Source: Massilia violaceinigra (lineage in GTDB: Bacteria > Pseudomonadota > Gammaproteobacteria > Burkholderiales > Burkholderiaceae_D). From it: a stretch of 64,000 nucleotides of DNA. The stretch spans positions 23,121 through 87,120 of the forward strand of contig NZ_CP024609.1 of assembly GCF_002752675.1 (NCBI RefSeq), given 5' to 3'. Below, one piece after another: positions 6,220-25,626 of the stretch (positions are counted from its first letter, which is position 1; each line of letters begins with the position of its first letter). The notes below the pieces were generated by a model. The model saw only the letters and a list, made by a program, of their open reading frames with translations. It did not search any database and was not told where the DNA came from. The position numbers and the translations under genes are program-made.

Positions 6220-6508
6220 GCATCATTTCTCCGGCCGCGAGTACGCCAAGGAGATGACCCTGCCAGCCCGGCACTACGCCGAAACGCACTCGCATAACTT
6301 CGACCACCTGAGCATTCTGGCACGCGGCACCGTGACCGTGACCATCGACGGTGTCGAGGAAATGCACGTCGGGCCGACCTGCATCACGATCCGTGCCGGG
6401 CAGGTGCACCACATCGAGGCGCTCACCGACTCGGTGTGGTTCTGCGTGCATGCGCACGAAGGCACCGACCCCGACAAGGTCGATAGCGTCCTGATCAAGG
6501 AGGCTTGA
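6200..6508 (+). CDS. Small single-domain cupin
   Basis: The start is GTG at 6200, with AAGGA about eight bases upstream. The 102-residue product has the first cupin motif (ETHSHNFDHLSILARGTVTV, about residues 28-47) and the second (GQVHHIEALTDSVWFCVH), with His residues suited to metal binding. It overlaps the end of the dioxygenase gene, so they form a coupled pair. Cupins of this size may be sugar or small-molecule binding proteins or isomerases; nothing here fixes the ligand. Confidence 0.8.
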   Translation: MIDLKIKHHFSGREYAKEMTLPARHYAETHSHNFDHLSILARGTVTVTIDGVEEMHVGPTCITIRAGQVHHIEALTDSVWFCVHAHEGTDPDKVDSVLIKEA

Positions 6509-6509
6509 T

Positions 6510-7220: not shown

Positions 7221-7231
7221 AGGATCGATCA

Positions 7232-8935
7232 ATGACAAATTGGAGCGGCATGGCCGCTGGATTTCAAGGCTATCAGGACGGACAGCGCCGCATCGCCGAA
7301 GACGAGCAGCGCGCAGCCGCCGAAGCGCGTCGCGCCAAAGCGGACAAGCGCGCCGACAGCGACGCGGCGTTTCAGGAAGAGGCACGCAGCCGCCAGCGCT
7401 ATGACTGGAACGAGGTCGACCGCATCAAAGCGGCCGACAAGAAGGACATGGCCGAAATCCGGGAACAGCTCGCCAGCGAGGCCGACGCTGCCCAGGGCGG
7501 TGCAAGCTTGGCTGAGGCGCCGGGCCAGGCCCCGGCCGACAAAATTCAGACGGAAATCGACAAGGCCATGGCGCCCCCGGCGGACTTGCTGCCGGGCGTG
7601 GCCGCCGGACCGGCGTCGATGGTGAAGAATCCGGGCGCCCTGAATCTGGCGCCCGCAGCCGCGGCACTGACCACACCGCCAGTGCCCAAGAAAATGGGCG
7701 CGATCGGCGCCCCGGCCGGAACTATCCACAAAGGCGACTTCAACAGCGTGCTTGAGGTGCAAACCGCGTTTCTCCGTCGCAAGAATGCGCGGGGCGACCT
7801 CACGCTCGAAGAGCTGGCCCAAAAAAAGGGGTTGCTGAGCAAGATGAAAAACGAGGGCATTGCCGATGCGTTGTCGCTCATGGGGCAAGGGCGCTACGGC
7901 GATGCGATGGAAGCGTACAACGCCGCCGGCGCCATGAAAGGCGCGCGCATCGTCAAAGGTGAGGCGAGTACGACCAAGATCAATGGCGAGGAACACCCCA
8001 CCCATATGGTCACGATCCGGAACCGCGACGGCAGCGAAGTCACGATGGACGTCGCCAAGGCCCGGTACCAGCTGCTCGACTTCGAGACGCAGCTGGCACA
8101 GTCCGCACGGGCCGGGCAGGCCGCCATGCAGCGCGAACACTACCAAGGGACACGCGAGGACAACAAGGCCGCGCGTGCCCAACAGGCTCGCGATTCCGCC
8201 GCCGGCCGCGCCATTCAAATGGCACATCTCAACATGTCGCGGGAACAGCACACGCAGTCAACGCCGCTCGGCCAGATCCAGGCCAAGGAAAAGGCGCTCG
8301 GCCGCGCGCTGTCGACTGTCGAGCGCGCCGCCCTGCTGGGCGTGGACTCGATGAACCCGGCCACCCGCGCCCAGCTGGGGAGCTTGCTGAAAGATCAGGA
8401 CCAGATCTCGGCCGCGATGACCAAGTCGCAGGCGGAGGGTACCTGGGCGCCCGAGTCCCTTGGCGCGAAGAGCCTGCACACGCGCTCAGCCATGCTTAAC
8501 CAGCAGGTTTCCGACTTGCTCGGCGACGCGCGCGGTGCGGCAGACCCGCTCAACCTGAACGGCTCTGCCAAGGGCGCGGCGCCCGCTGCCGCTCCCCCTG
8601 CAGCGGCCACGGGTCCGGCACCGTCCGCCCTCAAGGCGCCTGCAGGCGTGCGCGCGCCAGCGGCACCGAAGCAGAGCCCGCTTTTGGAGCTGATCGGGAT
8701 GTCTTCTGGCAACTCGGCGTGGAACCAGGTTGCGATCGAGAAGGCGGCCACCCTCGAAGCGGCGGCGGCAAAGTACCAGGAAGCGAAATTTGTCCTGAAT
8801 GCAACAGTCCCGTCTGGCGACATCGCCGCCACTGACGCCGCGCTAAAACGCGTGAACGCTGCGCGCGCCGTTGTGGAAGACAACATCGGCCCGGCTCTCA
8901 ACAAAACCGCAATGCTCGAAGCGCTCGGCATGTAA
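7232..8935 (+). CDS. Putative internal virion / ejection protein (middle)
   Basis: A 567-residue, strongly helical and charged protein (AEDEQRAAAEARRAKADKRA near the N-terminus) with an Ala/Pro linker at about residues 450-490. The central part (KGDFNSVLEVQTAFLRRKNA, GIADALSLMGQGRYGDAMEAY) resembles middle-sized podovirus internal proteins. It sits 11 bases after the preceding gene and 23 before the giant gene. The inferred role is part of the ejectosome delivered with the DNA. No enzyme motif was seen. Confidence 0.6.
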   Translation: MTNWSGMAAGFQGYQDGQRRIAEDEQRAAAEARRAKADKRADSDAAFQEEARSRQRYDWNEVDRIKAADKKDMAEIREQLASEADAAQGGASLAEAPGQAPADKIQTEIDKAMAPPADLLPGVAAGPASMVKNPGALNLAPAAAALTTPPVPKKMGAIGAPAGTIHKGDFNSVLEVQTAFLRRKNARGDLTLEELAQKKGLLSKMKNEGIADALSLMGQGRYGDAMEAYNAAGAMKGARIVKGEASTTKINGEEHPTHMVTIRNRDGSEVTMDVAKARYQLLDFETQLAQSARAGQAAMQREHYQGTREDNKAARAQQARDSAAGRAIQMAHLNMSREQHTQSTPLGQIQAKEKALGRALSTVERAALLGVDSMNPATRAQLGSLLKDQDQISAAMTKSQAEGTWAPESLGAKSLHTRSAMLNQQVSDLLGDARGAADPLNLNGSAKGAAPAAAPPAAATGPAPSALKAPAGVRAPAAPKQSPLLELIGMSSGNSAWNQVAIEKAATLEAAAAKYQEAKFVLNATVPSGDIAATDAALKRVNAARAVVEDNIGPALNKTAMLEALGM

Positions 8936-8958
8936 TTACAACTAATTCAAGGATCGCA

Positions 8959-11900
8959 ATGACTGGTTTGACCGAAGCACGCAAGAAACTCCCTGCACTG
9001 GGCACCCTCGACGACGCGGCGTTCGTGGATGCCGTCCACACGATGTACTACCCGGGAATGGACAAGGCGGAACTGTCCGCCAAGCTGGGCTATCAGCCGC
9101 CGGCAGCGCCGTCGGAATCGGCCGGGCTGGTGCGCACCGCCGGCGACGTGGGAATCAAACTCGGACAGGGCGTGGTCGACCTGGGCTCGGCGGTTGTCGG
9201 GCTCGGCAGCTTGGCAACGGGCGGCATGGTCGGCAAGGGCATGCGTGCGGCGGGCTACGACCCGAAACGAACCAATGAATTCCTGGGCGAGTTCCTGAGC
9301 GACAGTCAAAAAGCATCCGACGAGAAGGTCGCCCAAGCCGATGGTTTTGTGGGGACCATCGCCGAGTCGGTCAAAAACCCGCGCGCGATTCTTGGCTCGA
9401 TCGCCCAGTCAGCACCTGGCATGCTGGGCGGCATGGGCGTCACTGGCGCGCTGGCGCGCAAGGTGGCGACGCGCGCGGCGCTCGCCACTGGCGAAGGCGC
9501 GGCCGCGAGCGCAGCCAGCCTGGCGGCCGGCAAATCCGCGGCCGAAGCGACGGCGGCCGCCATGGCGACCGGCGCCGGCAGGAAGGCGGCCGCCGAAGCG
9601 GTCAACGCCGCCGGGACCAAGCTGATCGGCGCTGGCGCCCTGACGGAAGGTGCGCAGACCGCCGGCAATATCGCCGACCGGGCGCAGGCCGAGGGGCGGG
9701 AATACAGCGACTACGCTTTGCCAGCAGTTGGCGCCGGCCTGGGGACCGCCCTGATCGGACTCGGCGCAGGCAAAGTCATGGGCGACGCGGCCACGCAGAT
9801 CGCCACCCGTTCGGCCGGTGCCGAGGTGCGCAGCACGCTTGCTGGCCGGGTAGGCAAAGGCGTGCTGAGCGAGGGCGTGCTGGAGGAAATGCCGCAATCG
9901 GCGCAAGAGCAGGTATTTACCAATATCGCCATGGGCGAAGAAGACTTGGCCAAGGGCGTCAGCAACGCAGCCGGTACCGGCCTTGTCACTGGTATGGCCA
10001 TGGGCGGCGGCATGGCCGCGCTGCAAGGGGGACAGGCGGCCGCGCCAACGCCTGCACCAGTCGCGGGACCCGCTCCCGCTCCGACGCGGTTACCAGATAC
10101 CGGGCCGCTGTCGCGCGCGGCGAATGCCGGCCAGGCAGCGCTGGCACAACAACAAGCCGCTACGGCCGCCGCCACGCCACCAGCTGCGGCAGCTCATGCG
10201 TCATCGCTGGGCCAGATCGACGGCCGCCTGGCGGAACTGATTGCTATCGGGCACGGCTCGGTGGCGCAGCGCGTCAGGGGAGCAGACGGCCAGGTGAGCG
10301 CAGCACCCGCGGTGCCGGGACGCCGCCTCACCCCCGACGAGATCGCGGAATTCAATTCGCTGAAGCAGGCGCGGAAGGCACGCACCGAGATTCCGGCGGA
10401 TCAACAGGCGGAGTTTGCCGCCCTGCTGGCTGAGGAAGAAGCCGCAATCAACGCCAAGTTCGAGCCGGCCAAAGCGGCCGCCGCCGAGGCGCGCTCGCTG
10501 GCCGATGAAAGGCAGATCGCCGAGATGCTGGAAGAGGAAGCGCGCGCGCAGCGCTCGGCGGCCGCCGAGCGCGAAGCCCAGGAAGCACTGACCACCAACG
10601 CCATCATCGAGCACGAGCGCGCCGAACGCGCCGCTGCCAATCGCGCCGCGCTACGCGCCGAGGTGCTGGCCAACGCCGCCATCCCGGCCGAGCACAAGAA
10701 ACCTGCCTTCCTGGCCGCGCTCAAGCGCGACGGCTACGTGAACCCGGCCCTGACCGCCGACGATCACGCGGACATCGACGATGCGACCGCCCCGGTCCCC
10801 AGTCTGCCAAACGAGCTGGTCGACGCCGTTCCGGAGCGTTTAGCACCGGCGCCGGCACCGGCCGCGACGAATACGCGTGCCGTCGACGATGCGATCGCGG
10901 CCGGCATGCGCCTGAAAACGGCCAACGGCGCGATGCTACACAAGCCTGGCTCAAGCAAGGTTTTCAAGCTGAGCACCGCACAAAAAGCCTACTATCAGAA
11001 AGTGATGGCCCGCCTGGCCCGTGACGCGGCGCCCATCGCGGAGACGCCTGCTGTGCCGCAGGCTGCGGCTGAGATCGCGCCGGTGCTAACCACCGACCAA
11101 GCGCCTACCGTCGCCAAAACCACCCTGGACATCGCCGCCCATGAATCGGCCACGTCGCCGCTTAACGAGCTGGCCCAGCCGACCGCGGCGCAAAAAGAAG
11201 CGGGCAACTACAAGCTTGGCCGCGTCAAACTGCACGGCCTGGACCTCTCGATCGAGAACCCGGCCGGCTCGACCCGCTCGGGCGTGGACGGCCAGGGCAA
11301 CGCTTGGGAAGCCAAAATGGCGCACCACTACGGCTACATTCGCGGCACCATGGGCGCCGACAAGGATCACGTCGACGCGTTCATCGGCCCGAACCCCGAC
11401 AGCGACAAGGTGTTCGTCGTGGACCAAATCCACCCGAAATCGGGCAAGTTCGATGAACACAAGGTCATGTTCGGGTTCGACTCCCTGGATGACGCGCGCG
11501 ACGGCTACGAAGCCAACTACGCCGCCGGCTGGAAAGGCGGCCGCCACATCACCGAAACGGACACGTCCGTCTTCAAGACCTGGCTCGCATCCGGAAAAAC
11601 CCGGCGCCCGTTCGCGGAAAGCGCCCGGCGCCGGGGTATTCGTGCCGTGGAAGACATGCAGGCGGAAGCAACGCTGCTGGGCGCCACGCCCGAGCAGGTC
11701 GACGGGATCGCCTCCGTTGAAGAACTCTGGCGCAAGCAGTTTCCGAATACCTACGGCAATACGCCCGAGGAACGCAAGGGCGCGCCGCTCCTGGGCAAGC
11801 AGGAATTGAACCGGATGACGACTCGGGAGATGACCGACGAGCAGCTGCTGCAGGCGAAAATTGTGTTCGCCGGCCAGGCGCGTGCGCCGAAGATCGACAA

Positions 11901-14900
11901 GGAGATCGCCGCGCGTCGCTTGAATGTACCCGCGCCGCAGGCGGCACCTGAGCCAGCCGCCCAGGATGCGGTTCCCGCCGATCCCCCCGCAGCCGGACCG
12001 ATCGCCAACGCCACGGCCCCCGAGCACGTGCAGATCGGCGTGGACGACCGCGAACTGGGGCAGATCGTGGAGGAATTCAACGGTGCGCAAGCCGAAATGA
12101 TGGAAGGGGACCACCCCGTTACCAACATTTTCCAGCCGCCGGCCAAGGGCGAGGTGGTGCGCCTGAACGACAAGGCGAAGGTGTATCACAAGGAGCACGG
12201 CTGGATGACGCCGGCCGAAGCGCGAGTCACGATCGAGGCGTGGAAGGCGCGCGTGCAGGACCAGGGCGATAACGACGATATCCGGAGCGTCAACAGCAAG
12301 CGCGTCGTGCTGTCGCTGTTCGACCTGTCCGGCGAATGGTCCCGACCTTGGGAAGAGGCGGGCTATCAGGTGTACCGTTTCGACATTCAGGCCGATCCGG
12401 ATGTCGGCGACGTCAATAAATTCTCTTCCGACTTCTTCGGCGACTGGTTCGGCGACTTCGACGGGCTCGACATCTATGCGATCCTGGCGGCGACGCCGTG
12501 CACGGACTTCGCGGTGTCCGGTGCGCGTCACTTTGCCGCAAAGGACGAGGATGGCCGCACAGTAGCCAGCGTCAAGCTGGTGCACCAGACCCTGCGTACC
12601 ATCGAGTACTTCAAGCCGGCCGTGTGGGCTCTGGAGAACCCTGTCGGCCGTATCGAACGTCTCGGCGGCCTGCCGGCATGGCGTCTGTCGTTCGACCCAA
12701 ACCACCTGGGCGACCCATACACCAAGAAAACGCTCATTTGGGGCCGCTTTAACGGCGATCTGCCCGTCGCCCCGGTCAAGCCGACCGAGGGCAGCAAGAT
12801 GCACAAGCTGTACGGCGGCAAGAGCATGGCAACGAAGAACGCGCGCAGTGTGACGCCCGAAGGGTTCTCGTACGGCTTCTTCATGGCGAACAACGCGCAT
12901 GACAATCCCGTCATGGCCATCGCTAACAAATACGACCGCCTGGACCGCGACCTCATCGCGCGCGCAGTGGACGCCGGCGTGACCGAAGGCCAGATCAATA
13001 ACGCGGTCGAGGACTCCTACTACATGGATATGGACGACGAAGCGGCCAACGCAGCGATCGCCAACCTGATTGAAGAAAACAGCGCGCCCGATCCGGAGCC
13101 AACGCCGCTGCCCAAGAAGGGCAAAAAAGCGCCGAAGCCGACAGCACCGGCGGAATCGCAAGTTACGCCAGCCCGGCCGGCCGACATCAAGAGCTACACC
13201 GAGAAGGAGGCGCAGGCCGAATGGGAAGCGTCGCGTGAATACAAGCGCGGCGCGATCATGAGCCGCGTTGACCGCCGCGACCTGGCGCAGAAGGCGTGGG
13301 CGGACCTGACGGCCGACGAGCGCAAGATGGTGCGAGAAGCGCTGGACGGCGATTTCGATGCGCCGATGTGGTACATCAACAGCCAGGGCCAGAAGATCGA
13401 CAAGTTCCCCACGCTGGCGGCGCCGGTAAAGTCGGAAGCCCAGCTGGCTGAAGAACGCGGCTCGCAGCGCTGGGCGGACCTTTCCTTCAAGGGCCGCTAC
13501 AACCTTCTGCTGAATAACGGCATTGGCGGGGTCAATGCGGAGCAGGGCCAGTACAGCACCTGGACCGAACTCGCCGGCGCCTTGCGCACCCGGATCCTCG
13601 CGGGATTCGAGGCGGCCGCCGCCCCAAAGGCAGATGTGCAAGCGCCGGCGGCCGTCGATCCGTCCCCCAAGATCGACGCAGCCAAGGACACCGTCAAAGC
13701 GGCGCCAAAAGCGAAGCGCTCCACCGATATTATTCTACGCAACGACTGGGGCGTAAGCGACATCAACGGCTGGACCGAGATCGAGGGCGGCACCAACGAG
13801 CCTACCGACTACGGCCTTGTGGGTGGAATGAAAGACGCGTTCCTGGCAGATGCCCAAAACTTCCTGCGCAAGGTATCGAGCGCGCTACAGGCGCAGGGAT
13901 TCGTTCCGTACAAGGACGACAAGGGCAGGCTGGTCAAGGCCGTCCAGGTGAATAAATCCGGTGTGGCCGACGCCGGCGAGGTCTCTATGACCATCTTCCA
14001 TCCGGAAAAAGGACACGGCGTCTACCTGAAAATCAATGCGAGCATGCTGCGCGGCATCGTGCCGACCACCAAGTCGGGCGTTTCCATCATGATGCGCATC
14101 GGCACCCAAACCAACCAGCTGGGCACCAGAGATCGCAACCGCTTTATGCCGGTCGATCTGTCCGCCGTTGAGCTGGCCGAGCTGGCCGCTCAGGCAGTCC
14201 ACGCCGCAGCGATACCGCGTGCCGAAGTTGCCAAATCAGACGCAAACACCGATACTGATCCCACTCCCGCGCCTGCGGAAACGAAAGAGCAAACCAATGA
14301 TTCCACCACTGCAACAAGTGCGCCTGCGATCGATTCGCCGGTGGCTGACGGACAACGACCAGCAGGCGACGCTGTCACCCGAGGTGCTCGACCGCCGCGC
14401 ATCCGAGCTGGACGAAGCGATGCTGGAAGCGTTCGAGAGCCGCGAGGACGAGATCAAGTCACAGATGATGCAAGCGCAGACGTGGGGCACGGACGAGGGG
14501 CTGACCCAGTTCCCGACCGCGCGCCTGACGCTGTGGAGCGAGGTGACAAGCGAGTTCCTGCCGACTTCCGTCCCGGCATAGGCGGCCTGACCCGCGAAGG
14601 GTCATGGCTTGACACCGCAGGGCGCAACGTCGACCTGATTGAACTGGCCCTCAAGATCGAGGGTGAAAACCGCCCGGCAACCCCCAGCGAGCAGGAGCAG
14701 CTGGCGAAATACGTCGGCTTTGGCGCCTCCGCGATACGCAACAAGCTGTTCCCGATCCCACCCGCTCACGCCAAGCTGCAAGAACCCGCTCGCCTCATCT
14801 GGCCGGGCCTGATCGCCGAGGCCAGCTGGCGCGCCCTGGCGGAACGCATGGAGGCGCTGCCGGCCGCCTGGCAGCGCTCGGTCCTGCAATCGTCCCAGTA

Positions 14901-17900
14901 TGCCCATTACACCAGCGAAGGCATCATTCGTTCAACGTGGAGCGCAATGCAGCGTCTCGGCTTCACGGGCGGCAAGGTATTCGAGCCGGGCATGGGAATC
15001 GGTTCGTTTTCGATGCTGATGCCCGACAGCGTGCGTCAGACGTCGCGCTATACCGGTATCGAATTCGACGGCCCGACCGCGCTCATCGCGCGTTTGCTGT
15101 CGCCCGAGCAGAACATGCTGCACGATGACTTCATCAAGCGGAAATTCCCGCGCGACTACTTCGACGTCGCCATCGGCAACCCGCCCTTCTCGCAAACGCA
15201 GATTTTTGCCGATCCGGACTACGAAAAGCACGGCTTCATGCTGCACGACTTCTTCTTCGCCAAGTCGATCGACCGCGTGCGGCCGGGCGGTCTGCTCGCA
15301 TTCGTCACCAGCAAGGGCACCATGGACAAGCAGACCGACAAGGCCCGCAAGTACCTGGCCGCGCGCGCCGACCTGCTTGGCGCAATCCGTCTGCCGTCGA
15401 CCGCCTTCGAGGACAACGCCGGCACGTCGGTCGTAACCGATGTCATCTTCCTGCGCAAGCGCCTGGAGGGCGAGGCGCCAGCGGGCCAGCCGTGGGCCAA
15501 TGTCGCTACCGTCGACACCAAGGACGGCCCGACGGTCATCAATGAATACTTTGCCAGGCATCCGGAGATGGTGCTGGGGCAGAACCGCCTGTCCGGCAAT
15601 GTTGACGACATGGGCCGCCGGATCCACAGCAATGGCCGCGGCGAGGCCAGGTACACCGTTGTGTCCTATGACGACACGCCGGCGGAGCTGGATGCCAAAT
15701 TCGCGGCCGCGGTCGAGCGCCTGCCGGCAAACGCCTATTCGGTCTTAACGCAGTCGACCGAGAGCGTGCGCCGCGAGACGGCCAAGGTCGATTTTGACCC
15801 GAGCGTCAAGCGTGAAGGCGTCGTCTATCTGGCCGAGGATGGCACGATCATGCGCGTGGAAAACGGTGTTGGCCACCCGCTCGCATCCGGCATGAAGATG
15901 ACCGAGAGCGACAAGGCATGGTTCGCAGGCTATGTCGGCATCCGCGACCTCGTGAACGAGGCGCGCCTGGCGCAGTCCACCGGCGGCAAGTGGGAAGCGG
16001 CCCTGAAGAAGCTGAACAAAGCCTACGATGCCTTCCGCGCCGAGCATGGCCCGATCAATGATTTCCGGGTCCAGGTGCGCAAGTCCACCGACGAGGAAGG
16101 CAATGTGGTGGAAACCGAGTCGCGCGTGTTTAAAAACCGCCGGCGCTTCCGCGAGGACTACGACTCGGCCATCCTGACCCAGCTCGAAACCATCAATGAA
16201 GCCGGCGACATCGTCAAATCGGCGTTTCTGCTCGGCCGCACGATCGGCAAGCCGCTCAGCCGTGACATCAAGACTATTGGCGACGCCCTGGCAGTGTCGC
16301 TGGACGAAACCGGCCACCTGAATCTGGATGACGTGGGCCGCCGGCTCGGCCTGTCGCGCGACGAAGCGATCGAGGCGCTTGGCAATCAGGTGTATCGGGC
16401 GCCCGCCGGCGACTGGCAGCTGGCCGACGAGTACCTGTCGGGCGACGTGGTCAGCAAGCTGGAGGAAGCCGAGCATGCCGCGCGCCTGGACGCGAGCCTG
16501 GCCCGTAACATCGAAGCCCTGACGGCGGCGCAACCGGAAAAACTGGGTCCGTCGCAAATCAGCGCCAAACTCGGTGCTTCCTGGATTCCGGCGGAGCACG
16601 TCAACGCCTTTGCGGCCGAGATCGGCGCCGGCGCCGTTTCTTTTGACCCGAAAACCGAGACGTGGCAGGTTGACGGCGGCAATCTGCGCAGCGAGCGCCG
16701 CGCCGGCGCCGAATACGGCACCGGCGCCCGATCGCCGTCCGAGCTGCTGGAATCGGCCCTGAACAGCCGTTCACTCAAAGTCACCTTCAAGGTCGACGGC
16801 AAGACCGTGACCGATGCCGAGGCGACCACGGCCGCCAACGAAATGCGCAAGAAAATCAAGGACAAGTTCAAGGGCTGGATCTGGACCGACTCCGAGCGCG
16901 CAAGCGAGCTGGTCGAGTCGTACAACAAGCGCTACAACAACATCGCGCCGCGGCGCTTCGACGGCGCCTACCTGACGTTGCCGGGCGTGTCGATGCGCTA
17001 TACCCTGCACCCGCACCAGAAGAACGGTATCGCGCGCATCATCCACACGGGCGACACCTACCTGGCGCACGCCGTCGGATCGGGCAAGACCATCGAAATG
17101 ATTGCCGCGGGCATGGAGCAAAAGCGCCTGGGCCTGATCAGCAAGCCTATGTACGTGGTTCCGAACCACATGCTCGAGCAATTTTCCAACGAGTTCATGG
17201 AGCTGTACCCTCTGGCGAACATCATGGTGGCCGACGACGAGAATTTTTCCGCCGAGCGCCGCAAAGCCTTCATCGCCAGTGCAACCCTGAACAACCCGGA
17301 CGCGGTCATCATCACTCACGATGCCTTCCAGCGCATCGGCGTCAAGGAAGAATCGGTGGCGCCGATCCGCGACGAGATTTTGGCCGACCTGGAAATCGAA
17401 CTGTCGGAAACGGCCAAAGACAACGGCGCCCGCGTGCGCCGCAGCCAGCTGGAACAGCAGATCGAGGCGGTCACCCAGCGCTTCGACCGGATCGTCGCTG
17501 CAGGCGGCAAGGACTCGACGCTCAAATTCGAGGATATCGGGGTCGATTTCATCTTCGCCGACGAAGCGCACGTATTCCGCAAGCTCGACTTCCACACCGC
17601 CCAGCAGATCAAGGGAATCGACCCGAACGGATCGAAACGCGCGCTGGACATGTACGTCAAGAAACGGTGGCTGCAGCAGCAGCGCCCTGGCCGCGCCATG
17701 GTCTTCGCATCGGGCACCCCGGTGACGAACACCATGGGCGAGCTGTACACGATCATGCGCTTCTTCGCGCCGGAAGAAATGGACCGCGCAGGCATCGCCA
17801 CGTTCGACGCCTGGGCGCGCCAATTCGGCGAAGTCACGCCGGCGCTCGAACCAAACGCCGCGGGTAAATACGAGTTGATCGAGCGCTTTGCCAAGTTCGA

Positions 17901-20900
17901 CAACGTGCCCGAGTTGATGAGCCGCGTTCGCCAGTTCATGGACGTGCTCACGTCAGAACACCTGGGTGCCTTGGTCAAGCGCCCGGACTTGATCGGCGGC
18001 AAGCCAAACCTGAACATCGTGACGTCGGGGGCGGACCTTGAGCATTACATGAAAAACGTGCTCGGCCCCCGCATCGAGACATCGAAGCGCTGGAAGCCCA
18101 CGAAAGAGGAGCCGAACAACCCGGACCCAGTCGTGTCGATCATCACCGACGGCCGCTTCGCCGCCATCGACCCGCGCTTTTTCGGCGGCAACGTCGGCGA
18201 AGAGGGCAGCATCATCACCCTCATGGGCGACAAGGTGGCCGCGGCCTATCATGCCGGCAAGGACAATGTCTATCAGGACAAGAACGGCAAGGATGAGCCG
18301 ATCAAGGGCAGCACGCAGATCGTGTTCTACAACATGGGCTTCGGCGAGCAGTCGCAAAGAAACCGCGGTTTCGACGCGCGCGGCGCCTTCACCAAGCGCC
18401 TGACCGACGGGGGAATCCCGCGCAAGCAGATCGCGTGGTTCGACGACGCCAACACCGACGCCAAGAAGGAAGCGGTCTTCAAGGACATGCGCAGCGGCAA
18501 GTTGCGCGTGCTGATCGGTTCGGCAAAGAAAATGGGCACCGGCGTGAATGTGCAAAAACGCCTGGCGGTTCTGCACTATCAGGACCCGCCATGGTTTCCG
18601 GCCGACGTCGAGCAGCCGCACGGCCGCATTATCCGCCAGGGCAACCAGAATGCGGAAGTGACGATCGAGTGGTACACCACCAAGGGTACCTACCAGTCCA
18701 CCATGTGGCAGATGGTGGGGCGCAAGCAGCGCTTCATCGACCAGGCGTTTTCCGGCGATAAAACGCTGCGCAGCATGGACGATATGGGAGAGGCATCGCT
18801 GTTCGAGCAGGCTGCGGCCGTGGCGTCTGGCGATCCGCGCGCAATCCAGCTGGCTGGCTTGAAACAGGAGGTCGAGCGCTTCGAGCGCCTGCAGGCGGCG
18901 CACGCCAACGAACAGATCGGCGTGCGCTCGGCATTGCGCGGGGCGCAATGGGAGGTCGAACATGCCGGCAAAGTGATCAACCACTATAGCGCCGCCTTCA
19001 AGATCATCGGGGAACGCATCTATACCTTCACTGCGGGCAAAGTGGGGAAGGCCGTGTTCGACAAGGTGGGCGAGTTCGGCCAGGCCGTCAAGGACGCGTT
19101 CAACCGGGTGGCGGCGGATTCGATTACCGGCCCGGCCGCGCGTGACCAGCAGATCGGCGCCCTGGGCGATGATCTGCCCATCACCGTCGACGCCGAGTCG
19201 TTCGGCGGCAAGCTCAATGGTGAATTTACCCTGTATGTGCACGTGGGCGACCTGCCGCTGACTGTCACCACCACGAGCGCAATGGGCGAGAACGTCGATG
19301 CCGTCGGGCTTGGACGCCGAATCGTGAACCAGGTCAACAGCATCAGCCAGGACTTGGCCAAGGCCAAGGCAAAGCTGTCGTCCGGCCAAACGGACCTTGT
19401 TCGTCTGCGCAAGAAATTCGGCGCGCCATTCGAGTATCAACAGGAGATGGCAGAAAAGTACGGCGACCTCAAGCGCCTTGAGGAAGAACTGCGCCTGGAA
19501 GGAATGGCGCCGCCTGCCGTGCCGGTCGTGATCGATGCGGCCGGGATGACGGCCGCGGAAGCTGCATCGAGCCCTGGCGCGCAGGACGAGCCGCCGGCGC
19601 CGGACGGTTTGATGTTTAGCCGGGCCCGCATCGACACGGATGCGCCGCTGGTGAACATCTTTTCGCAGATCGCGACGGACGACGCCGCTTTCCGCATGCC
19701 GGACAGCGACGCCAAAACCCTTGCCGGCATCCTGGCCGACATGGCGCCGGCGCTTTCGGTTGATGAGTTCGTTGGCGAGGGCGATCTGGAGGATGCGGCC
19801 GCGCCGGTCGACCGCGCCTGGCACATTATGTCGCCGACCGGCGAGCAGGCCAGCGTGTACCACAACAACCGCAACAAGGAAATCTGGCTCGATATCTCGA
19901 ACTGGAAGGAAGGTCGCACCGGCTCGGTGGTTTATCAGGCCGTGGCCACGCTCGCCCACAATACCGGCCACGTCTTCATTGGCGACCCCGCTGGGCTGTC
20001 CGACAAGGCGCTGTACCGCCGCACGGAGCACATGATTTCCTCCGCGCTGCGCCATGGCACCACCAAGCACCTGGCGCCGCATGCGCGCCAGGTTGAGGCG
20101 ACCGGAACCGCCGGCGGCGCCGACGTGCGTCCCATCGACTGGCAAGAGGGCGACGATGCCCATAACTTGCAGGAAATGCTGGTTTCGTCCTACACTAACA
20201 TCCTGCACCTTTTCCCCGAGATCGCCGATGTCACCTACAACTTCGCCCGCGCCCGCTTCGAGCGCGCACCCGTTCGGGCATCTGCCGGGGCACTACGAGC
20301 TGACCAATCCGATCTCGGAGAATGGTCTGATGAGCAAGGGCTGGGACCAGCCGACGGTGGAAGCACTGCCGGACGCGGAACTGACCGCGCTGATGAAGGC
20401 GCACGGGACGTCGGCCGAGTGGATGCAGTACCTTTCACGGACGCGGATTTTGTCGCTGCTGCAGAATCGGTACGAAGCGCTTTTGACGTCTTCTTCCCAA
20501 CCGCAAGAGGAAAGTACACGCCGCCGATTGGGGTGTCTGATATTAAGAGAGCGGTTCTTACCCAGTCAGTTTTACAAGAGGTTGGACGAGACGGAGGGCG
20601 AGAAGTTCTGGATCACGTTTCAGAGCGGCTCCTACAACGTGTAAGCCCCCAGCTCGCGCGCCTGCTGTATAGCCGCGACGCGGAATACTTCCGCGACGAT
20701 GGCGTTTCTTCCGTGCCAACACTTCCCGCCGGCGCCGATGCCGGCACGGCCGCGCCGCTCGACCTGAGCGGCGTCGATTTCCTGCGCGCCATGAAGGCGA
20801 CGGAACAGCTAAACCGCGAGCTGGCCAAGGCCGACATGGCGCCCGTGCGTGCGCTGCGCACCGCTCCCAACGCGCAGTTCGCCCTGGCGCGCCAGGTTGG

Positions 20901-23900
20901 TAAGGCGCTGGGCATCGATGTCAATTTCGTGAGCAAGAACGCGGAGTTCGAGGGTGTGGCCTACAACGGCGTCGCCTATCTCACCGAAGGCATGCGCAAT
21001 GCCGAACTGGCGATCGCCGGCCACGAAACGCTGCACGCGCTCGAACAGTCGAATCCGGAGCTGGGCGCCAAGCTGCGCACGCAGATCCGCGCCTACCTGA
21101 AAGAGGGGGTCGTGGAAGACCGCCAGGCGCGCGAATTCGCGGCAAACGGGTTCCAGGATGTCACGGAGGATCAGGCCGAAGCCGAAGTCATCGCCGATAT
21201 CAACGGCGGCATGTGGTTGGACCCGGTGTTCTGGTCCGACCTGGCCAAGGTCGACCGCTCGCTGTTCCGGAGCGTGGCCTACAAGTTCATGGAAGTGGCG
21301 GCCAAGCTGATCAAGAGCCTGCGCGGCTCGCGCTTCGACGTGGCCGCGCTGGTGCGCGACGTCGACGCCGTGCGCGCCATCATGGTCGCTACCTGGGCGG
21401 AAAACAACGCCACGCGCGACGCCGCGGCGCCGGCGCCAGTGGTCAGCCGGGCCATGCGCGAATCCTCAGTCGCACTGCCGAGCGCGAAATGGCTTTCGGA
21501 CGAGGCGATAGCCAAAGAAGTTGAAAACCGCATTGGCAAATTTGAACACCAGCCCGTGATCCGTATCCGCGACAGCGCTTTCGGCGTCCTCCCGGGTGTC
21601 GCACGTGATGAGCGGGTGTCCGGTGCGGTGTACGAAGGCGTCATCTACCTGTTCCGGGACGCCCTGCCCACCCTGCGGGAGGTCCAGCGGACGCTGTTCC
21701 ACGAAATGATGCACTACGGACTCCAAAGGTTTCTTCCAAGCGACGAGTATATCACCCGCATGAACATGCTTTACCAGCGCGACGGCGCTTTCCGGGCCGA
21801 GGCAGACCGCTGGGTGAAGACCGAGCAGGGCCAGCTAGCCGTGAAGGAGGGCGGGCAGAAGCACGCGACCGCGCGCGGCATTGACGAAGCGCTTGCGGTG
21901 CTGGCCGAACCGAACGCCGGCGCTTTTACGAGGATGGACGTACGCGCCAAGGTGGAACGCGCCGTACAGCGCTGGCTGGCGAACCTGGCCGAGTGGATGG
22001 GCATGGCCGAGGCGGCCGCCTACTGGCGCGGCATGAAGAATGAAGAGGCACGCGCCCTGATCGAGCAGATTTTCCGCAGGACCGCGACCGACTTCCCGCC
22101 GGCGGACCCATGGGCGGGCGCCGGCCGCGCGGCGCTGCGCAAGGGCAAGGCGGCATCGAGCGGCGCCGCTGCGCCTGGCAACTCGCCGGCGTTCAAGGCA
22201 TGGTTTGGCGACAGCAAAGTGGTCAACGACGACGGCACGCCGCTGGTCGTCTACCACGGCACGAGCGCGGACATTCGTGTCTTTAACACGTCGGCTGGCT
22301 GGTACGGCCGCGGAATCTATTTCGCCCACGACCCGGCATGGGCAAGCGAATTCGCCGAGGAAAGCGGGCTCGATAATGACGGAGGCGACAATGTCGTGCC
22401 GGCGTACTTGAGCCTTCAACGCCCGTTTATCTTCCGTGACAAGGCCAATGACGAAGCGTCCAACATCGAACTGATGAGGGAACTAGGGATCAGTGAGCGA
22501 AAAATCAACAAGGCCATCGGCGCCGACGATAATGCGGCGGACGTGATCACGGCCGCGCTTGAAGGCATGGGGCACGATGGCTTGATCGTCATGTCGCGTG
22601 ACGGGAACGAGTACATGGCCCTTTACCCGCAACAGATCAAGTCGGCCGTCGGCAATTCGGGCGAGTTCGACGGAGGAAACCCGGACATCGCATTTAGCCG
22701 CGCCGGCCTGGGCGACGCGCTGGCCAGCGCCGCCAACAGCATCGCCGAGGTGCGCCTACCGGCGAACTATCGCGTCGGCGACCTGTTCAACGGCACGGGT
22801 AAGCTGAGCTGGTGGCACAAGTCGATCGGCACGATGGACAACCTGGCAAAACGCCAGCCGGCCTTCGCCGCTGTCTATGGCGCCGTGCAGCGCTTCCTGG
22901 GCGACGTTTCGCGCTACGCCGTGGTGGCGGCCGACCTGGCGCCGACCCTGCTTCCAAAGCTGGAAAACGTGGCCGATATCGTGGGTAAAAACCGCAAAAA
23001 GGCGCTGACGGCCGCCGATACCAAGGCGATCGGCGCGCCGATCTTCGAGGGCACGCTGGCCTGGGCGCGCGATGCGCACGGGAAGCCGGTTAAGATCGAT
23101 GCACTTGAGGAGCAGGCAAAGGCGATGTCGACCGCCGACAAGGCGCGCATCCTGCTGGAAAAGGGGATTATTGACGACCAGCAGAATCGCGCCTGGCAGC
23201 ACAACCCGCTCGATGTTTACGATTCCATCATCGACAGCCGCTTCAAGGATAGCCAACTGCGCGCCGGCGTGGTCTGGACCGATGCCGAGCTGCAGTCGAT
23301 GTTCGGCCTGTCGGCCGACCAGGTCGTGCTGTACCGCCAGTTCCGCGCGGCGCTCGACAAGAGCCTCACGAATCTGACAATCAGCGAAATGGTCAAACTG
23401 GGCGGCAAGGACGCCAAGGGCATGCTGGAGCAGGCCGTGGCGGCGCCGGATCTGCCAGCAGCGGCCGCACTGCTGCGCGACCATTTTATTGCCCTGGCCA
23501 AGCTGGACCCGGAAAAGATGGACATGCACCTCGACACGGCCAGGCAGATCATGAACGTGTCGGACAAGGGCCGCGACCTGATGGACCGCGGCTACGCGCC
23601 GCTGTCGCGCTTCGGCAAGCACACCGTGTACGTGCAGGAGGGCGAGGATCAGGTGTACTTCGGCATGTTCGAGACGCAGTACGAGGCGTCGAAGATGGCG
23701 CGCGACATGCGCGCCGAGCATCCGGCCGCGCAGGTGTCGCAAGGCACTGTCTCGGCCGACGCCTATAAGCTGTTCGCCGGCGTCTCTCCGGAGACGATCG
23801 AGCTGTTCGGCTCGATGGTAAGGCTCGACAGCCAGGCGAGCGCCGCCAGCACGGAGGTGTATCAGACCTACCTGAAACTGGCGAAGAACAACCGCAGCTC

Positions 23901-25626
23901 GATGAAGCGCATGATCCAGCGCAAGGGTATCGCGGGCTTTTCAGAGGATGCCGGCCGGGTGCTGGCCGGTTTTATTTACAGCAACGCCCGCCTGACCGCC
24001 GGCAACGCGCACCTGGGCGAGATCGATGAAGCCGTCACCGAGATCCCGAAACAGCAGGGCGAATTGACGGACGCGGCCATGCAGCTGCGCGAGCATATCC
24101 GTCATCCCGACGCCGGCGCGCCGCTGGGCGGCCTGATGTTCGCGCAGTTCCTGGGCGGCTCGGTGGCATCGGCGATGGTCAACCTTACCCAGCCGTTCAC
24201 AATGACCTTGCCCTACCTGAGCCAGTTCGGGGGCCTGACGAAAGCGGGGGCGCGCCTGGCGGCCGCCGTGAAGGACGCCGGCAAGGATGCGACCGGCGAC
24301 GCGCAGCTCGACGCCGCGATGCAATGGGCGATCGAGGAAGGGATCGTCGCGCCGCAAGAGGTCCACTACCTGCAGGCGCAGGCGTCGGGCAAGGGCGCGC
24401 TGCGCGCCGGCGACGGCACCAAGGCCGGCAACACCCGGGCCCACCTGAACAATGCGATGGCAAAGGTCACGCTGGGCTGGGGCAAGCTGTTTGCGATGGC
24501 CGAGCTGGCCAACCGCCGCATTACCTTTATCGCGGCCTACCGCACGGCCGTGGCCGAAGGGTTGGGAGATCCGGCCAGATTCGCCCAGGAGGCGGTAGCG
24601 CAGACGCAGGGCACCTACAATTCGGGCAACAAGCCGCAGTGGGCGCGCGGCGCGGTCGGCTCGCTGCTGCTGACGTTCAAGCAGTATTCGATCGGCTACC
24701 TTGAGCTGCTGTCGCGCATGGCATTCGCCGGCACGCCTGGCTCGAAAGAGCGCGCGGCCGGGCGCCGCGCGGCGCTGTACATGCTGGCCGTGCTGCTGCT
24801 GATGGGCGGCGCCGACGGCCTGCCGTTCGAGCAGGATCTTGAAGACGCGATCGATGGCATCCTGCAGCGGCTCGGCTACAACTTTTCGAGCAAGCGCTCG
24901 AAGCAAGCGTTCCTGACCGATACGCTTGGCCAGGGCGGTGCCGACTTCGTGCTGAAAGGCGTATCGAGCATGCCAGGCATGCCGATCGACGTCGCCGGCC
25001 GGTTCGGGATGGGCAACCTGATCCCCGGTACCGGGCTGCTGACGAAGAAGGATTCGTACACGCGCGACCTGGGCGAGCTGACCGGGCCTGCCGGCGACGT
25101 CGCCAAGCGCGCGTTCACCGGCGCCGGCAAGCTCCTGGGCGGTGACGTGGCCGGCGCCGTGCTCGACATCACGCCGGCGGCCGTGCGCAACGTCGCCAAG
25201 GGAGCCGACATGCTGGCCACCGGCGCCTACCGGGACGCGCGCGGCTACAACGTGAACGAAACCAGTGGCGCCGAAGCGGTGATGAAGATGATCGGCTTCC
25301 AGCCGAACAGCACCGCCGACGTCCAGGATGCCAAGGGCCAGGCCCTAAACATGGTGGGCCAGAACCGCATGCGCTCGATGGAGATCGCCGAGCACTGGGC
25401 GCAGGGCCTGGCCGACGGCGACATGGCGAGGGTGGATGAGGCGCGCGCCTGGCGCGACGACTGGAATGCGAAAAATCCCGCGACGCCGATCAGGGTCAGC
25501 ATGCCGGGCGTCATCAAGCGCGTAAAGGCGATGAGACAGGACGCTTTGAACCGGACGCAGAAGACCGCGCCGGCCGCCCTGAGACAGACCGTCCGGCGCG
25601 AGCTGGCGGAAACGCGGGCCGAATAG
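8959..25626 (+). CDS. 5555-residue polyvalent ejection protein (DarB-like, PLxRFG)
   Basis: One open frame of 5555 codons. Domains in order: an Ala/Gly-rich membrane-active N-terminal part (1-400); a coiled coil (460-620); a pyrophosphatase-like domain (750-885); a cytosine-5 methyltransferase-like domain (1113-1313) with the PC motif in ATPCTDFAVSG and ENP in ALENPVGR; an unassigned globular domain (1587-1750); an adenine-N6 methyltransferase-like domain (1884-2150) with FEPGMGIGSF near 2005 and NPPF near 2072; an SNF2-type helicase (2680-3290) with GSGKT near 2705 and DEAH near 2867; zinc-peptidase-like HETLH near 4021 and HEMMH near 4248; an ADP-ribosyltransferase-like domain (4408-4580) with YHGTSADIRVF and GRGIYFAHDP; and a PLxRFG motif (APLSRFG, about 4878). 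A hydrophobic segment lies near 5273. P1 DarB and related proteins are packaged and injected against restriction. That role is inferred here. Confidence 0.88.
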   Translation: MTGLTEARKKLPALGTLDDAAFVDAVHTMYYPGMDKAELSAKLGYQPPAAPSESAGLVRTAGDVGIKLGQGVVDLGSAVVGLGSLATGGMVGKGMRAAGYDPKRTNEFLGEFLSDSQKASDEKVAQADGFVGTIAESVKNPRAILGSIAQSAPGMLGGMGVTGALARKVATRAALATGEGAAASAASLAAGKSAAEATAAAMATGAGRKAAAEAVNAAGTKLIGAGALTEGAQTAGNIADRAQAEGREYSDYALPAVGAGLGTALIGLGAGKVMGDAATQIATRSAGAEVRSTLAGRVGKGVLSEGVLEEMPQSAQEQVFTNIAMGEEDLAKGVSNAAGTGLVTGMAMGGGMAALQGGQAAAPTPAPVAGPAPAPTRLPDTGPLSRAANAGQAALAQQQAATAAATPPAAAAHASSLGQIDGRLAELIAIGHGSVAQRVRGADGQVSAAPAVPGRRLTPDEIAEFNSLKQARKARTEIPADQQAEFAALLAEEEAAINAKFEPAKAAAAEARSLADERQIAEMLEEEARAQRSAAAEREAQEALTTNAIIEHERAERAAANRAALRAEVLANAAIPAEHKKPAFLAALKRDGYVNPALTADDHADIDDATAPVPSLPNELVDAVPERLAPAPAPAATNTRAVDDAIAAGMRLKTANGAMLHKPGSSKVFKLSTAQKAYYQKVMARLARDAAPIAETPAVPQAAAEIAPVLTTDQAPTVAKTTLDIAAHESATSPLNELAQPTAAQKEAGNYKLGRVKLHGLDLSIENPAGSTRSGVDGQGNAWEAKMAHHYGYIRGTMGADKDHVDAFIGPNPDSDKVFVVDQIHPKSGKFDEHKVMFGFDSLDDARDGYEANYAAGWKGGRHITETDTSVFKTWLASGKTRRPFAESARRRGIRAVEDMQAEATLLGATPEQVDGIASVEELWRKQFPNTYGNTPEERKGAPLLGKQELNRMTTREMTDEQLLQAKIVFAGQARAPKIDKEIAARRLNVPAPQAAPEPAAQDAVPADPPAAGPIANATAPEHVQIGVDDRELGQIVEEFNGAQAEMMEGDHPVTNIFQPPAKGEVVRLNDKAKVYHKEHGWMTPAEARVTIEAWKARVQDQGDNDDIRSVNSKRVVLSLFDLSGEWSRPWEEAGYQVYRFDIQADPDVGDVNKFSSDFFGDWFGDFDGLDIYAILAATPCTDFAVSGARHFAAKDEDGRTVASVKLVHQTLRTIEYFKPAVWALENPVGRIERLGGLPAWRLSFDPNHLGDPYTKKTLIWGRFNGDLPVAPVKPTEGSKMHKLYGGKSMATKNARSVTPEGFSYGFFMANNAHDNPVMAIANKYDRLDRDLIARAVDAGVTEGQINNAVEDSYYMDMDDEAANAAIANLIEENSAPDPEPTPLPKKGKKAPKPTAPAESQVTPARPADIKSYTEKEAQAEWEASREYKRGAIMSRVDRRDLAQKAWADLTADERKMVREALDGDFDAPMWYINSQGQKIDKFPTLAAPVKSEAQLAEERGSQRWADLSFKGRYNLLLNNGIGGVNAEQGQYSTWTELAGALRTRILAGFEAAAAPKADVQAPAAVDPSPKIDAAKDTVKAAPKAKRSTDIILRNDWGVSDINGWTEIEGGTNEPTDYGLVGGMKDAFLADAQNFLRKVSSALQAQGFVPYKDDKGRLVKAVQVNKSGVADAGEVSMTIFHPEKGHGVYLKINASMLRGIVPTTKSGVSIMMRIGTQTNQLGTRDRNRFMPVDLSAVELAELAAQAVHAAAIPRAEVAKSDANTDTDPTPAPAETKEQTNDSTTATSAPAIDSPVADGQRPAGDAVTRGARPPRIRAGRSDAGSVREPRGRDQVTDDASADVGHGRGADPVPDRAPDAVERGDKRVPADFRPGIGGLTREGSWLDTAGRNVDLIELALKIEGENRPATPSEQEQLAKYVGFGASAIRNKLFPIPPAHAKLQEPARLIWPGLIAEASWRALAERMEALPAAWQRSVLQSSQYAHYTSEGIIRSTWSAMQRLGFTGGKVFEPGMGIGSFSMLMPDSVRQTSRYTGIEFDGPTALIARLLSPEQNMLHDDFIKRKFPRDYFDVAIGNPPFSQTQIFADPDYEKHGFMLHDFFFAKSIDRVRPGGLLAFVTSKGTMDKQTDKARKYLAARADLLGAIRLPSTAFEDNAGTSVVTDVIFLRKRLEGEAPAGQPWANVATVDTKDGPTVINEYFARHPEMVLGQNRLSGNVDDMGRRIHSNGRGEARYTVVSYDDTPAELDAKFAAAVERLPANAYSVLTQSTESVRRETAKVDFDPSVKREGVVYLAEDGTIMRVENGVGHPLASGMKMTESDKAWFAGYVGIRDLVNEARLAQSTGGKWEAALKKLNKAYDAFRAEHGPINDFRVQVRKSTDEEGNVVETESRVFKNRRRFREDYDSAILTQLETINEAGDIVKSAFLLGRTIGKPLSRDIKTIGDALAVSLDETGHLNLDDVGRRLGLSRDEAIEALGNQVYRAPAGDWQLADEYLSGDVVSKLEEAEHAARLDASLARNIEALTAAQPEKLGPSQISAKLGASWIPAEHVNAFAAEIGAGAVSFDPKTETWQVDGGNLRSERRAGAEYGTGARSPSELLESALNSRSLKVTFKVDGKTVTDAEATTAANEMRKKIKDKFKGWIWTDSERASELVESYNKRYNNIAPRRFDGAYLTLPGVSMRYTLHPHQKNGIARIIHTGDTYLAHAVGSGKTIEMIAAGMEQKRLGLISKPMYVVPNHMLEQFSNEFMELYPLANIMVADDENFSAERRKAFIASATLNNPDAVIITHDAFQRIGVKEESVAPIRDEILADLEIELSETAKDNGARVRRSQLEQQIEAVTQRFDRIVAAGGKDSTLKFEDIGVDFIFADEAHVFRKLDFHTAQQIKGIDPNGSKRALDMYVKKRWLQQQRPGRAMVFASGTPVTNTMGELYTIMRFFAPEEMDRAGIATFDAWARQFGEVTPALEPNAAGKYELIERFAKFDNVPELMSRVRQFMDVLTSEHLGALVKRPDLIGGKPNLNIVTSGADLEHYMKNVLGPRIETSKRWKPTKEEPNNPDPVVSIITDGRFAAIDPRFFGGNVGEEGSIITLMGDKVAAAYHAGKDNVYQDKNGKDEPIKGSTQIVFYNMGFGEQSQRNRGFDARGAFTKRLTDGGIPRKQIAWFDDANTDAKKEAVFKDMRSGKLRVLIGSAKKMGTGVNVQKRLAVLHYQDPPWFPADVEQPHGRIIRQGNQNAEVTIEWYTTKGTYQSTMWQMVGRKQRFIDQAFSGDKTLRSMDDMGEASLFEQAAAVASGDPRAIQLAGLKQEVERFERLQAAHANEQIGVRSALRGAQWEVEHAGKVINHYSAAFKIIGERIYTFTAGKVGKAVFDKVGEFGQAVKDAFNRVAADSITGPAARDQQIGALGDDLPITVDAESFGGKLNGEFTLYVHVGDLPLTVTTTSAMGENVDAVGLGRRIVNQVNSISQDLAKAKAKLSSGQTDLVRLRKKFGAPFEYQQEMAEKYGDLKRLEEELRLEGMAPPAVPVVIDAAGMTAAEAASSPGAQDEPPAPDGLMFSRARIDTDAPLVNIFSQIATDDAAFRMPDSDAKTLAGILADMAPALSVDEFVGEGDLEDAAAPVDRAWHIMSPTGEQASVYHNNRNKEIWLDISNWKEGRTGSVVYQAVATLAHNTGHVFIGDPAGLSDKALYRRTEHMISSALRHGTTKHLAPHARQVEATGTAGGADVRPIDWQEGDDAHNLQEMLVSSYTNILHLFPEIADVTYNFARARFERAPVRASAGALRADQSDLGEWSDEQGLGPADGGSTAGRGTDRADEGARDVGRVDAVPFTDADFVAAAESVRSAFDVFFPTARGKYTPPIGVSDIKRAVLTQSVLQEVGRDGGREVLDHVSERLLQRVSPQLARLLYSRDAEYFRDDGVSSVPTLPAGADAGTAAPLDLSGVDFLRAMKATEQLNRELAKADMAPVRALRTAPNAQFALARQVGKALGIDVNFVSKNAEFEGVAYNGVAYLTEGMRNAELAIAGHETLHALEQSNPELGAKLRTQIRAYLKEGVVEDRQAREFAANGFQDVTEDQAEAEVIADINGGMWLDPVFWSDLAKVDRSLFRSVAYKFMEVAAKLIKSLRGSRFDVAALVRDVDAVRAIMVATWAENNATRDAAAPAPVVSRAMRESSVALPSAKWLSDEAIAKEVENRIGKFEHQPVIRIRDSAFGVLPGVARDERVSGAVYEGVIYLFRDALPTLREVQRTLFHEMMHYGLQRFLPSDEYITRMNMLYQRDGAFRAEADRWVKTEQGQLAVKEGGQKHATARGIDEALAVLAEPNAGAFTRMDVRAKVERAVQRWLANLAEWMGMAEAAAYWRGMKNEEARALIEQIFRRTATDFPPADPWAGAGRAALRKGKAASSGAAAPGNSPAFKAWFGDSKVVNDDGTPLVVYHGTSADIRVFNTSAGWYGRGIYFAHDPAWASEFAEESGLDNDGGDNVVPAYLSLQRPFIFRDKANDEASNIELMRELGISERKINKAIGADDNAADVITAALEGMGHDGLIVMSRDGNEYMALYPQQIKSAVGNSGEFDGGNPDIAFSRAGLGDALASAANSIAEVRLPANYRVGDLFNGTGKLSWWHKSIGTMDNLAKRQPAFAAVYGAVQRFLGDVSRYAVVAADLAPTLLPKLENVADIVGKNRKKALTAADTKAIGAPIFEGTLAWARDAHGKPVKIDALEEQAKAMSTADKARILLEKGIIDDQQNRAWQHNPLDVYDSIIDSRFKDSQLRAGVVWTDAELQSMFGLSADQVVLYRQFRAALDKSLTNLTISEMVKLGGKDAKGMLEQAVAAPDLPAAAALLRDHFIALAKLDPEKMDMHLDTARQIMNVSDKGRDLMDRGYAPLSRFGKHTVYVQEGEDQVYFGMFETQYEASKMARDMRAEHPAAQVSQGTVSADAYKLFAGVSPETIELFGSMVRLDSQASAASTEVYQTYLKLAKNNRSSMKRMIQRKGIAGFSEDAGRVLAGFIYSNARLTAGNAHLGEIDEAVTEIPKQQGELTDAAMQLREHIRHPDAGAPLGGLMFAQFLGGSVASAMVNLTQPFTMTLPYLSQFGGLTKAGARLAAAVKDAGKDATGDAQLDAAMQWAIEEGIVAPQEVHYLQAQASGKGALRAGDGTKAGNTRAHLNNAMAKVTLGWGKLFAMAELANRRITFIAAYRTAVAEGLGDPARFAQEAVAQTQGTYNSGNKPQWARGAVGSLLLTFKQYSIGYLELLSRMAFAGTPGSKERAAGRRAALYMLAVLLLMGGADGLPFEQDLEDAIDGILQRLGYNFSSKRSKQAFLTDTLGQGGADFVLKGVSSMPGMPIDVAGRFGMGNLIPGTGLLTKKDSYTRDLGELTGPAGDVAKRAFTGAGKLLGGDVAGAVLDITPAAVRNVAKGADMLATGAYRDARGYNVNETSGAEAVMKMIGFQPNSTADVQDAKGQALNMVGQNRMRSMEIAEHWAQGLADGDMARVDEARAWRDDWNAKNPATPIRVSMPGVIKRVKAMRQDALNRTQKTAPAALRQTVRRELAETRAE
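14297..14581 (+). CDS. Nested gene in the +1 frame of the giant gene (94 aa)
   Basis: Inside the giant gene, between its unassigned domain and its methyltransferase, the +1 frame is open from ATG 14297 to TAG 14579-14581. It reads as ordinary protein (RRWLTDNDQQATLSPEVLDR, ELDEAMLEAFESREDEIKSQ, ARLTLWSEVTSEF). Its codons end mostly in G or C, as in neighbouring genes. The giant frame over the same bases is an Arg/Gly/Asp-rich linker full of CGA, GGA and GCA codons that are rare elsewhere. So selection seems to act on the +1 frame. AAAGAG about seven bases upstream is a weak ribosome binding site. No family was recognised. Confidence 0.65.
   Translation: MIPPLQQVRLRSIRRWLTDNDQQATLSPEVLDRRASELDEAMLEAFESREDEIKSQMMQAQTWGTDEGLTQFPTARLTLWSEVTSEFLPTSVPA
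20330..20644 (+). CDS. Second nested gene in the +1 frame of the giant gene (104 aa)
   Basis: The ATG at 20330, with GGAG at 20317-20320, opens a 104-residue +1 frame ending TAA 20642-20644. It reads MSKGWDQPTVEALPDAELTA, then HGTSAEWMQYLSRTRILSLL and KRLDETEGEKFWITFQSGSY. The first half has the G/C-ending codon habit of the phage, while the giant frame there is a low-complexity Gly/Asp/Arg linker. In the second half (about 20430-20640) both frames look protein-like, so that stretch may be truly dual-coding. The +1 frame also looks coding for about 60 bases before the ATG (GHYELTNPISENGL), so an upstream non-ATG start or a frameshift is possible. Confidence 0.6.
   Translation: MSKGWDQPTVEALPDAELTALMKAHGTSAEWMQYLSRTRILSLLQNRYEALLTSSSQPQEESTRRRLGCLILRERFLPSQFYKRLDETEGEKFWITFQSGSYNV

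Follow-up and report, generated by a model that had tools for sequence, protein, structure and literature searches.

A probable small gene overprinted in the +1 frame on the LPD37 end of a giant phage polyvalent gene

Nested and overprinted genes of viruses have been reviewed (PMC8227390). In such cases, as proposed for the locus described in the present study, a complete small gene occupies another frame of a longer one, with both frames under constraint. What sets the present case apart is that the putative nested gene goes with one particular domain of giant (about 3000–6000 aa) phage polyvalent proteins, that it recurs across distant phages and that a second, unrelated nested gene lies in the same giant gene. 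A further comparison is with programmed +1 frameshifting in phages (PMC5009743), which would likewise make use of a +1 frame behind a main-frame domain; here, however, a start is kept in the second frame and the one candidate shift site is not kept. The host gene, with its methylase, InPase and LPD37 domains, belongs to the class of polyvalent proteins described by Iyer et al. 2017 (PMC5512222), a paper that, in the portion used here, calls the function of LPD1–LPD40 elusive. The word ‘overlapping’ is absent from its main text, and the portion used here describes no second-frame gene. By name, LPD37 was not mentioned in the literature that we searched.

The stretch of DNA analysed (the window) comprises 64,000 nucleotides, read on the forward strand, of a Massilia violaceinigra contig (NZ_CP024609.1, positions 23,121–87,120). 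The whole contig measures 87,120 bases in a 7.5-Mb genome and, because podovirus-like virion genes (an internal virion protein, a DNA ejection match and a tail fibre) occur on it together with plasmid-type genes (ParA, KfrA and integrases), it looks like a phage-plasmid. The giant polyvalent gene is an ORF on the + strand at 8959–25626, the 5555 aa product of which has Pfam matches to InPase, DNA_methylase, LPD37 and Eco57I/N6_Mtase and an NCBIfam match to tail-700 PLxRFG; the Erwinia relatives are annotated DarB-like. The main part of LPD37 (PF18853) is read in the main frame at 19660–20265 (+ strand; profile positions 3–200), and its score of 216.5 bits against a curated cut-off of 27 places it within PF18853. 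Pfam also reports LPD37 as a single 304-residue match across the insert (profile positions 3–239), with the C-terminal end of the domain beyond 20265. Elsewhere in the window, an RHS-repeat protein at 31936–34332 has an Ntox22 match of 24.9 bits, just below the family cut-off of 25, so that this contig may also encode a polymorphic toxin.

The nested reading frame and its conservation in close relatives

The sequence-only reading of this DNA had proposed an overprinted gene that starts at an ATG at 20330, behind a GGAG at 20317–20320, and is open in the +1 frame to 20644, and all of these elements are indeed present. They form part of a longer, complete ORF in the +1 frame, at 20228–20644 on the + strand, which encodes 138 aa and lies wholly inside 8959–25626 over the 3′ end of LPD37. 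Openness of the +1 frame alone proves nothing, because such open frames are common in this GC-rich giant gene, in which 17 +1 runs of 80 codons or more lack a stop, the two nested stretches included. From about 20265 to 20644 the GC content by codon position takes on the +1 phase, being flat around 20460–20579. In addition, a codon model trained on the giant gene with both suspected nested stretches masked favours the +1 over the main frame at two places only, 14239–14599 and around the 20228–20644 gene; in the latter, windows starting at 20239–20389 and at 20509–20569 favour +1, and those starting at 20419–20479 favour the main frame. Given these signals, the start, frame and stop kept in close relatives, the excess of +1 conservation and the AlphaFold2 model, we consider it highly probable that 20228–20644 constitutes a small gene of its own, lying in the +1 frame within the giant gene.

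The other place picked out by the codon model corresponds to the first nested gene along the giant gene, a putative +1-frame gene of 94 aa at 14297–14581 (+ strand) in the linker before the methylase domain. With 76% identity and in the same +1 frame, it recurs in the contigs of L036 and Janthinobacterium S3T4, which were also the only two found in a scan of viral contigs; the stretches obtained for L034 and L039 begin too late to be informative. The earlier observation that both nested genes share one relative frame is borne out, as both are +1 and each is conserved in relatives. By eye, short +1 ORFs are also seen before the same methylase domain in L066 and L084.

A search with the main-frame protein returned 25 relatives, and the main frame aligns through all of the 15 closest, which were the ones aligned, with a nearly constant linker length and a longer insert in P0015. 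At the DNA level, the nearest relative, a genome of the same genus (G004), aligns gap-free over 19858–22195 with 92.4% identity; in this alignment 20265–20644 has 16 substitutions in 380 bases, nine silent in +1 and four in the main frame, and the flanking 300-base blocks at 19858–20157 and 20645–20944 have 26 each, of which 17 and 20 respectively are silent in the main frame. The close clade was examined as eight DNA sequences (the window plus L031, L032, L034 and L036–L039), all of which keep the +1 frame, with 125 residues from an HPF motif to the stop. As a near-duplicate of the window, L031 was left out of the stop-codon and selection analyses, and in the seven sequences checked the stop was TAA at the same place throughout. 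That no relative might keep the +1 frame had been named in the sequence-only reading as the finding that would count against it; relatives do keep this frame, and its conservation in them supports the overprinted gene.

Selection on both frames, a check that the same reading had called for, was assessed on the seven close sequences, and both frames came out above the null. With the main-frame protein held as given, +1 conservation reached z values of 13.3 at 20267–20329, 12.6 at 20330–20434 and 14.0 at 20435–20641 (23.1 overall), and with the +1 product as given the main-frame values over the same three segments were 3.7, 8.4 and 16.5. The +1 frame is open in all seven sequences, against a null mean of 0.45 of seven and a maximum of three. 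In 30-codon windows the +1 z was 11.5–18.2 inside the nested gene, 9.8 with about 30 bases inside and at most 8.6 wholly outside, values that ancestry inflates, since each codon is redrawn separately in the null; a control block spanning codons −30 to −20 gave 5.4. The z of the +2 frame is raised inside the gene as well (5.2–11.4), owing to a lower overall variability of the DNA there, and in every inside window the +1 z exceeds the +2 z. Judged against this null, which ignores ancestry, conservation of the +1 frame goes beyond what the main-frame protein would impose. Third positions of the +1 frame are commonest among the variable columns of the first half (16/21 and then 24/35), and third positions of the main frame among those of the second half (39/69). 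Because of these variable positions and the two-frame z values, we read the first half as serving mainly the nested gene and the second half as serving both, the main frame more strictly. The dual coding that had been suspected for the second half thus holds up, in that both frames exceed the null there and main-frame helices are predicted.

The probable start of the nested gene

The proposed start is the ATG at 20228–20230 (+ strand), which is ATG or GTG in all eight close sequences and at which +1 conservation rises. Upstream of it lies a GAG at 20218–20220, with no strong Shine–Dalgarno sequence. The ATG at 20330–20332 (+ strand) that had been put forward as the start is probably an internal methionine codon instead, since it is replaced in three of seven close sequences (CTG, CTG and CTC in L036, L038 and L039 respectively) and conservation of the +1 frame extends further upstream. 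The nested gene therefore most likely begins at 20228 and not at 20330, as judged from these comparisons.

We surveyed the start region in 51 distinct loci anchored on the LPD37 motif Y[DN]xxTGxF, searching codons −18 to −2; L057 (anchor not found), six identical regions, L051 and L035 were left out. A +1 ATG occurs in 46 of the 51 loci, and an ATG or GTG in 48. In 2000 synonymous redraws of the main frame the expected number of loci with a +1 ATG was 25.4 (S.D. 3.1, maximum 37), an excess that overstates the certainty because related loci are not independent. The ATG is at −10 in 20 loci and at −7 in 14, never at both, and the −10 ATG of the window is that at 20228. There is also an excess at −17 (16 observed, 4.2 expected), with a stop before the conserved part in several loci; the remaining three loci have neither ATG nor GTG in the searched stretch, and in L041 a stop follows the −10 ATG. 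Shine–Dalgarno strength at the start was not above the null, the means being slightly weaker.

The profile of +1 conservation over the null gives a similar position in some clades. In the close clade z rises from 0.6 over codons −20 to −10 to 3.4 over −10 to −5, and in a distant clade of eight loci it stays around or under zero before −10 (−2.3 to 0.7) and reaches 2.1–3.1 at −9/−8 and 3–8 from −3. A second distant clade, of six loci, had a weak and patchy rise at the start (z −1.2 to 2.9), and for all distant loci together z climbs to 2–3. Translation would most likely be initiated from within the mRNA of the giant gene, at the ATG 20228, and the product of this start would be a 138 aa helical protein with a predicted disordered N-terminus. 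In the comparison with G004, 20158–20264 has one substitution in 107 bases and 20158–20329 has two in 172, below both flanks; this low divergence may possibly reflect a translation signal around the nested start.

Distant phages and competing explanations

Scanning viral contigs for LPD37 gave 56 loci. In the +1 frame, 75 or more codons free of stops follow the LPD37 core in all 58 rows compared, these being 55 viral loci (L035 excluded) plus L029, L031 and L032, with several copies of one region among them; the +2 frame has long runs in some rows too (20–242 codons), and in three rows (L045, L050 and L051) the main frame stops within 300 codons past the core. A profile of the nested protein, built from 36 proteins, 35 of them from loci obtained here, and used with a match threshold of E below 0.1, matches 55 of the 56 viral loci, always in the +1 frame of LPD37. 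As 32 of these loci are members of the profile, the matches to 23 of the 24 others, several of which are copies, carry the weight; the one exception is L083, in which only visual inspection points to a similar ORF. A profile of the eight close sequences alone also picks up +1 ORFs in distant loci, for the most part with weak scores (E 1e-5 at best and 0.0006–0.06 for several), and a C-terminal motif of the +1 protein is shared across distant phages. Outside the viral contigs, a search of 398 genomes for LPD37 found six besides the source genome, and of the five loci complete at the 3′ end L095, L099 and L101 match the nested profile clearly, L096 weakly and L098 by eye; L100 is cut by a contig end, and the nested protein of L099 looks the same as that of the viral locus L074. 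On these comparisons the pairing of LPD37 with the putative nested gene is old, the two occurring together in almost all of the LPD37 loci examined.

In the isolated Erwinia phages PEp14, Stean and Pavtok the nested gene lies inside a CDS annotated as one gene and is itself unannotated. Gene-finding programs tend to reject ORFs that sit within a longer one, and for this reason a small-protein family kept over dozens of phage loci, these three phages included, seems to be unannotated. Among the database proteins, P0029 begins in the LPD37 main frame and then runs on in the nested frame, perhaps owing to an error in sequencing or to frameshifting in nature.

A separate small gene is not the only reading of a conserved +1 frame. 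Were ribosomes programmed to shift into +1 at the LPD37 end, a shortened giant protein with a +1-encoded C-terminus would be made and no separate small protein, and two observations lean this way: the strong +1 conservation of the close clade starts at HPF, adjoining a CCC-GTT codon pair that resembles known +1 shift sites, and Shine–Dalgarno sequences are not enriched at the ATG. However, at this one candidate site the CCC-GTT of the window is TCC-GTT in L038 and L039, inspection by eye of the loci listed revealed no shared slippery motif, the excess of +1 conservation goes up at the position of the ATG both in the close clade and in one of the distant clades, and a second-frame start of its own is found far more often than codon use predicts; we therefore regard a frameshift as unlikely. 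It is very improbable, in our judgement, that the +1 frame is untranslated and owes its conservation to base composition, a DNA or RNA signal or shared ancestry. Long open +1 and +2 frames in a GC-rich gene, a null without ancestry and the raised +2 z inside the gene would all fit such an account, but it leaves aside the protein similarity and C-terminal motif across distant phages, which include the viral loci outside the profile, as well as the codon-position pattern, the lead of +1 over +2 in every inside window, the confidently predicted fold and the finding of no Rfam match over 19800–20900.

The sequence-only reading had itself offered an alternative, namely that the giant gene is a fusion of formerly separate genes, with the small gene once independent between them. 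About 54 codons do appear, by eye, to be inserted in the close clade relative to distant LPD37 sequences such as P0016, which would speak for a fusion. Against this, the main frame aligns straight through the 15 closest database proteins, no nested copy was found outside LPD37 modules in the loci obtained, the source genome has no separate copy beyond a match with an E of 0.136, and all six database matches to the nested protein are on contigs of at most 2.9 kb without readable context. In addition, the overlap with LPD37 occurs in distant phages also and for that reason must be old. With no separate nested copy in the data searched, the fusion alternative is left unsupported, and we consider it extremely improbable.

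Predicted structures and a possible role

For the product of the putative nested gene, AlphaFold2 predicted a compact all-helical protein with a floppy N-terminus, the best of five models having a pLDDT of 88.0 and a pTM of 0.80 (pLDDT range 67.5–88.0). The main-frame model has a mean pLDDT of 69.3, falls below 50 at residues 208–251 (window positions 20281–20412), which are predicted to be disordered, and has helices at residues 261–278 and 292–308 with moderate confidence. The disordered part is a low-complexity linker in LPD37 (20281–20412, + strand, under the first half of the nested gene), where A/G/R/S/Q/E/K/P/D make up 80–87% over a 55-residue stretch. In the proposed arrangement, the first half of the nested gene would thus overlie a disordered linker, and its second half would share its DNA with the LPD37 C-terminal helices, the dual-coding stretch at 20413–20641 (+ strand) carrying both these helices and the C-terminal motif of the nested protein. 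Such an arrangement would illustrate how coding capacity can be added to giant polyvalent genes within their linkers, and would be a naturally occurring example of one DNA stretch encoding two proteins that are both predicted to fold.

The family and structure searches run on the 138 aa protein gave no relative with a known function: the best Pfam match had an E of 0.18, no PHROG matched up to an E of 1, there was no PADLOC or NCBIfam match, the structure search gave no informative match, and family-profile matches for L032 and the distant nested forms all had E values of at least 0.11. The nested gene offers a handle on the role of the orphan domain LPD37. We would guess, tentatively, that its product is a dedicated partner of LPD37, whether a chaperone, a packaging aid or an antidote, as a partner role would explain why the nested gene was not found apart in the data searched and in places seemingly moves with the LPD37 3′ end. 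More broadly, and with similar reserve, the LPD37 3′ end is possibly a two-protein cassette that phages exchange and stockpile, with an antidote or packaging chaperone inside a giant virion-type gene; every copy would then specify both the C-terminus of the domain and its small partner, one in each of two frames. Polymorphic-toxin cassettes have been likened to polyvalent loci (PMC5512222, in the portion used here), and the displaced partial 3′ copies of the module in L050/L051 may be comparable; in contrast to such cassettes, the putative partner gene here overlaps and does not follow.

The divergence of the nested stretch was compared with that of its flanks in 15 pairs of loci, where it was more divergent than both flanks in three, less than both in eight and between them in four. 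In the Erwinia phages PEp14 and Pavtok (L092/L094) it differs by 19.6% against 8.7 and 7.1% in the flanks, and in L068/L071 by 14.4% against 5.1 and 8.7%, so that in these two pairs its divergence is 1.7–2.8 times that of either flank; the third pair, L042/L044, is barely more divergent. The PEp14/Pavtok difference is the reverse of what double constraint would lead one to expect, and suggests module exchange. Among the 56 viral loci, displaced partial modules occur only in L050/L051, of which L051 is probably a near-copy with the same matches. There, at 5860–10330, an intact LPD37 with its nested gene is followed by three partial LPD37 3′ modules, each of which has its own nested ORF, one of them of a different subtype by eye.
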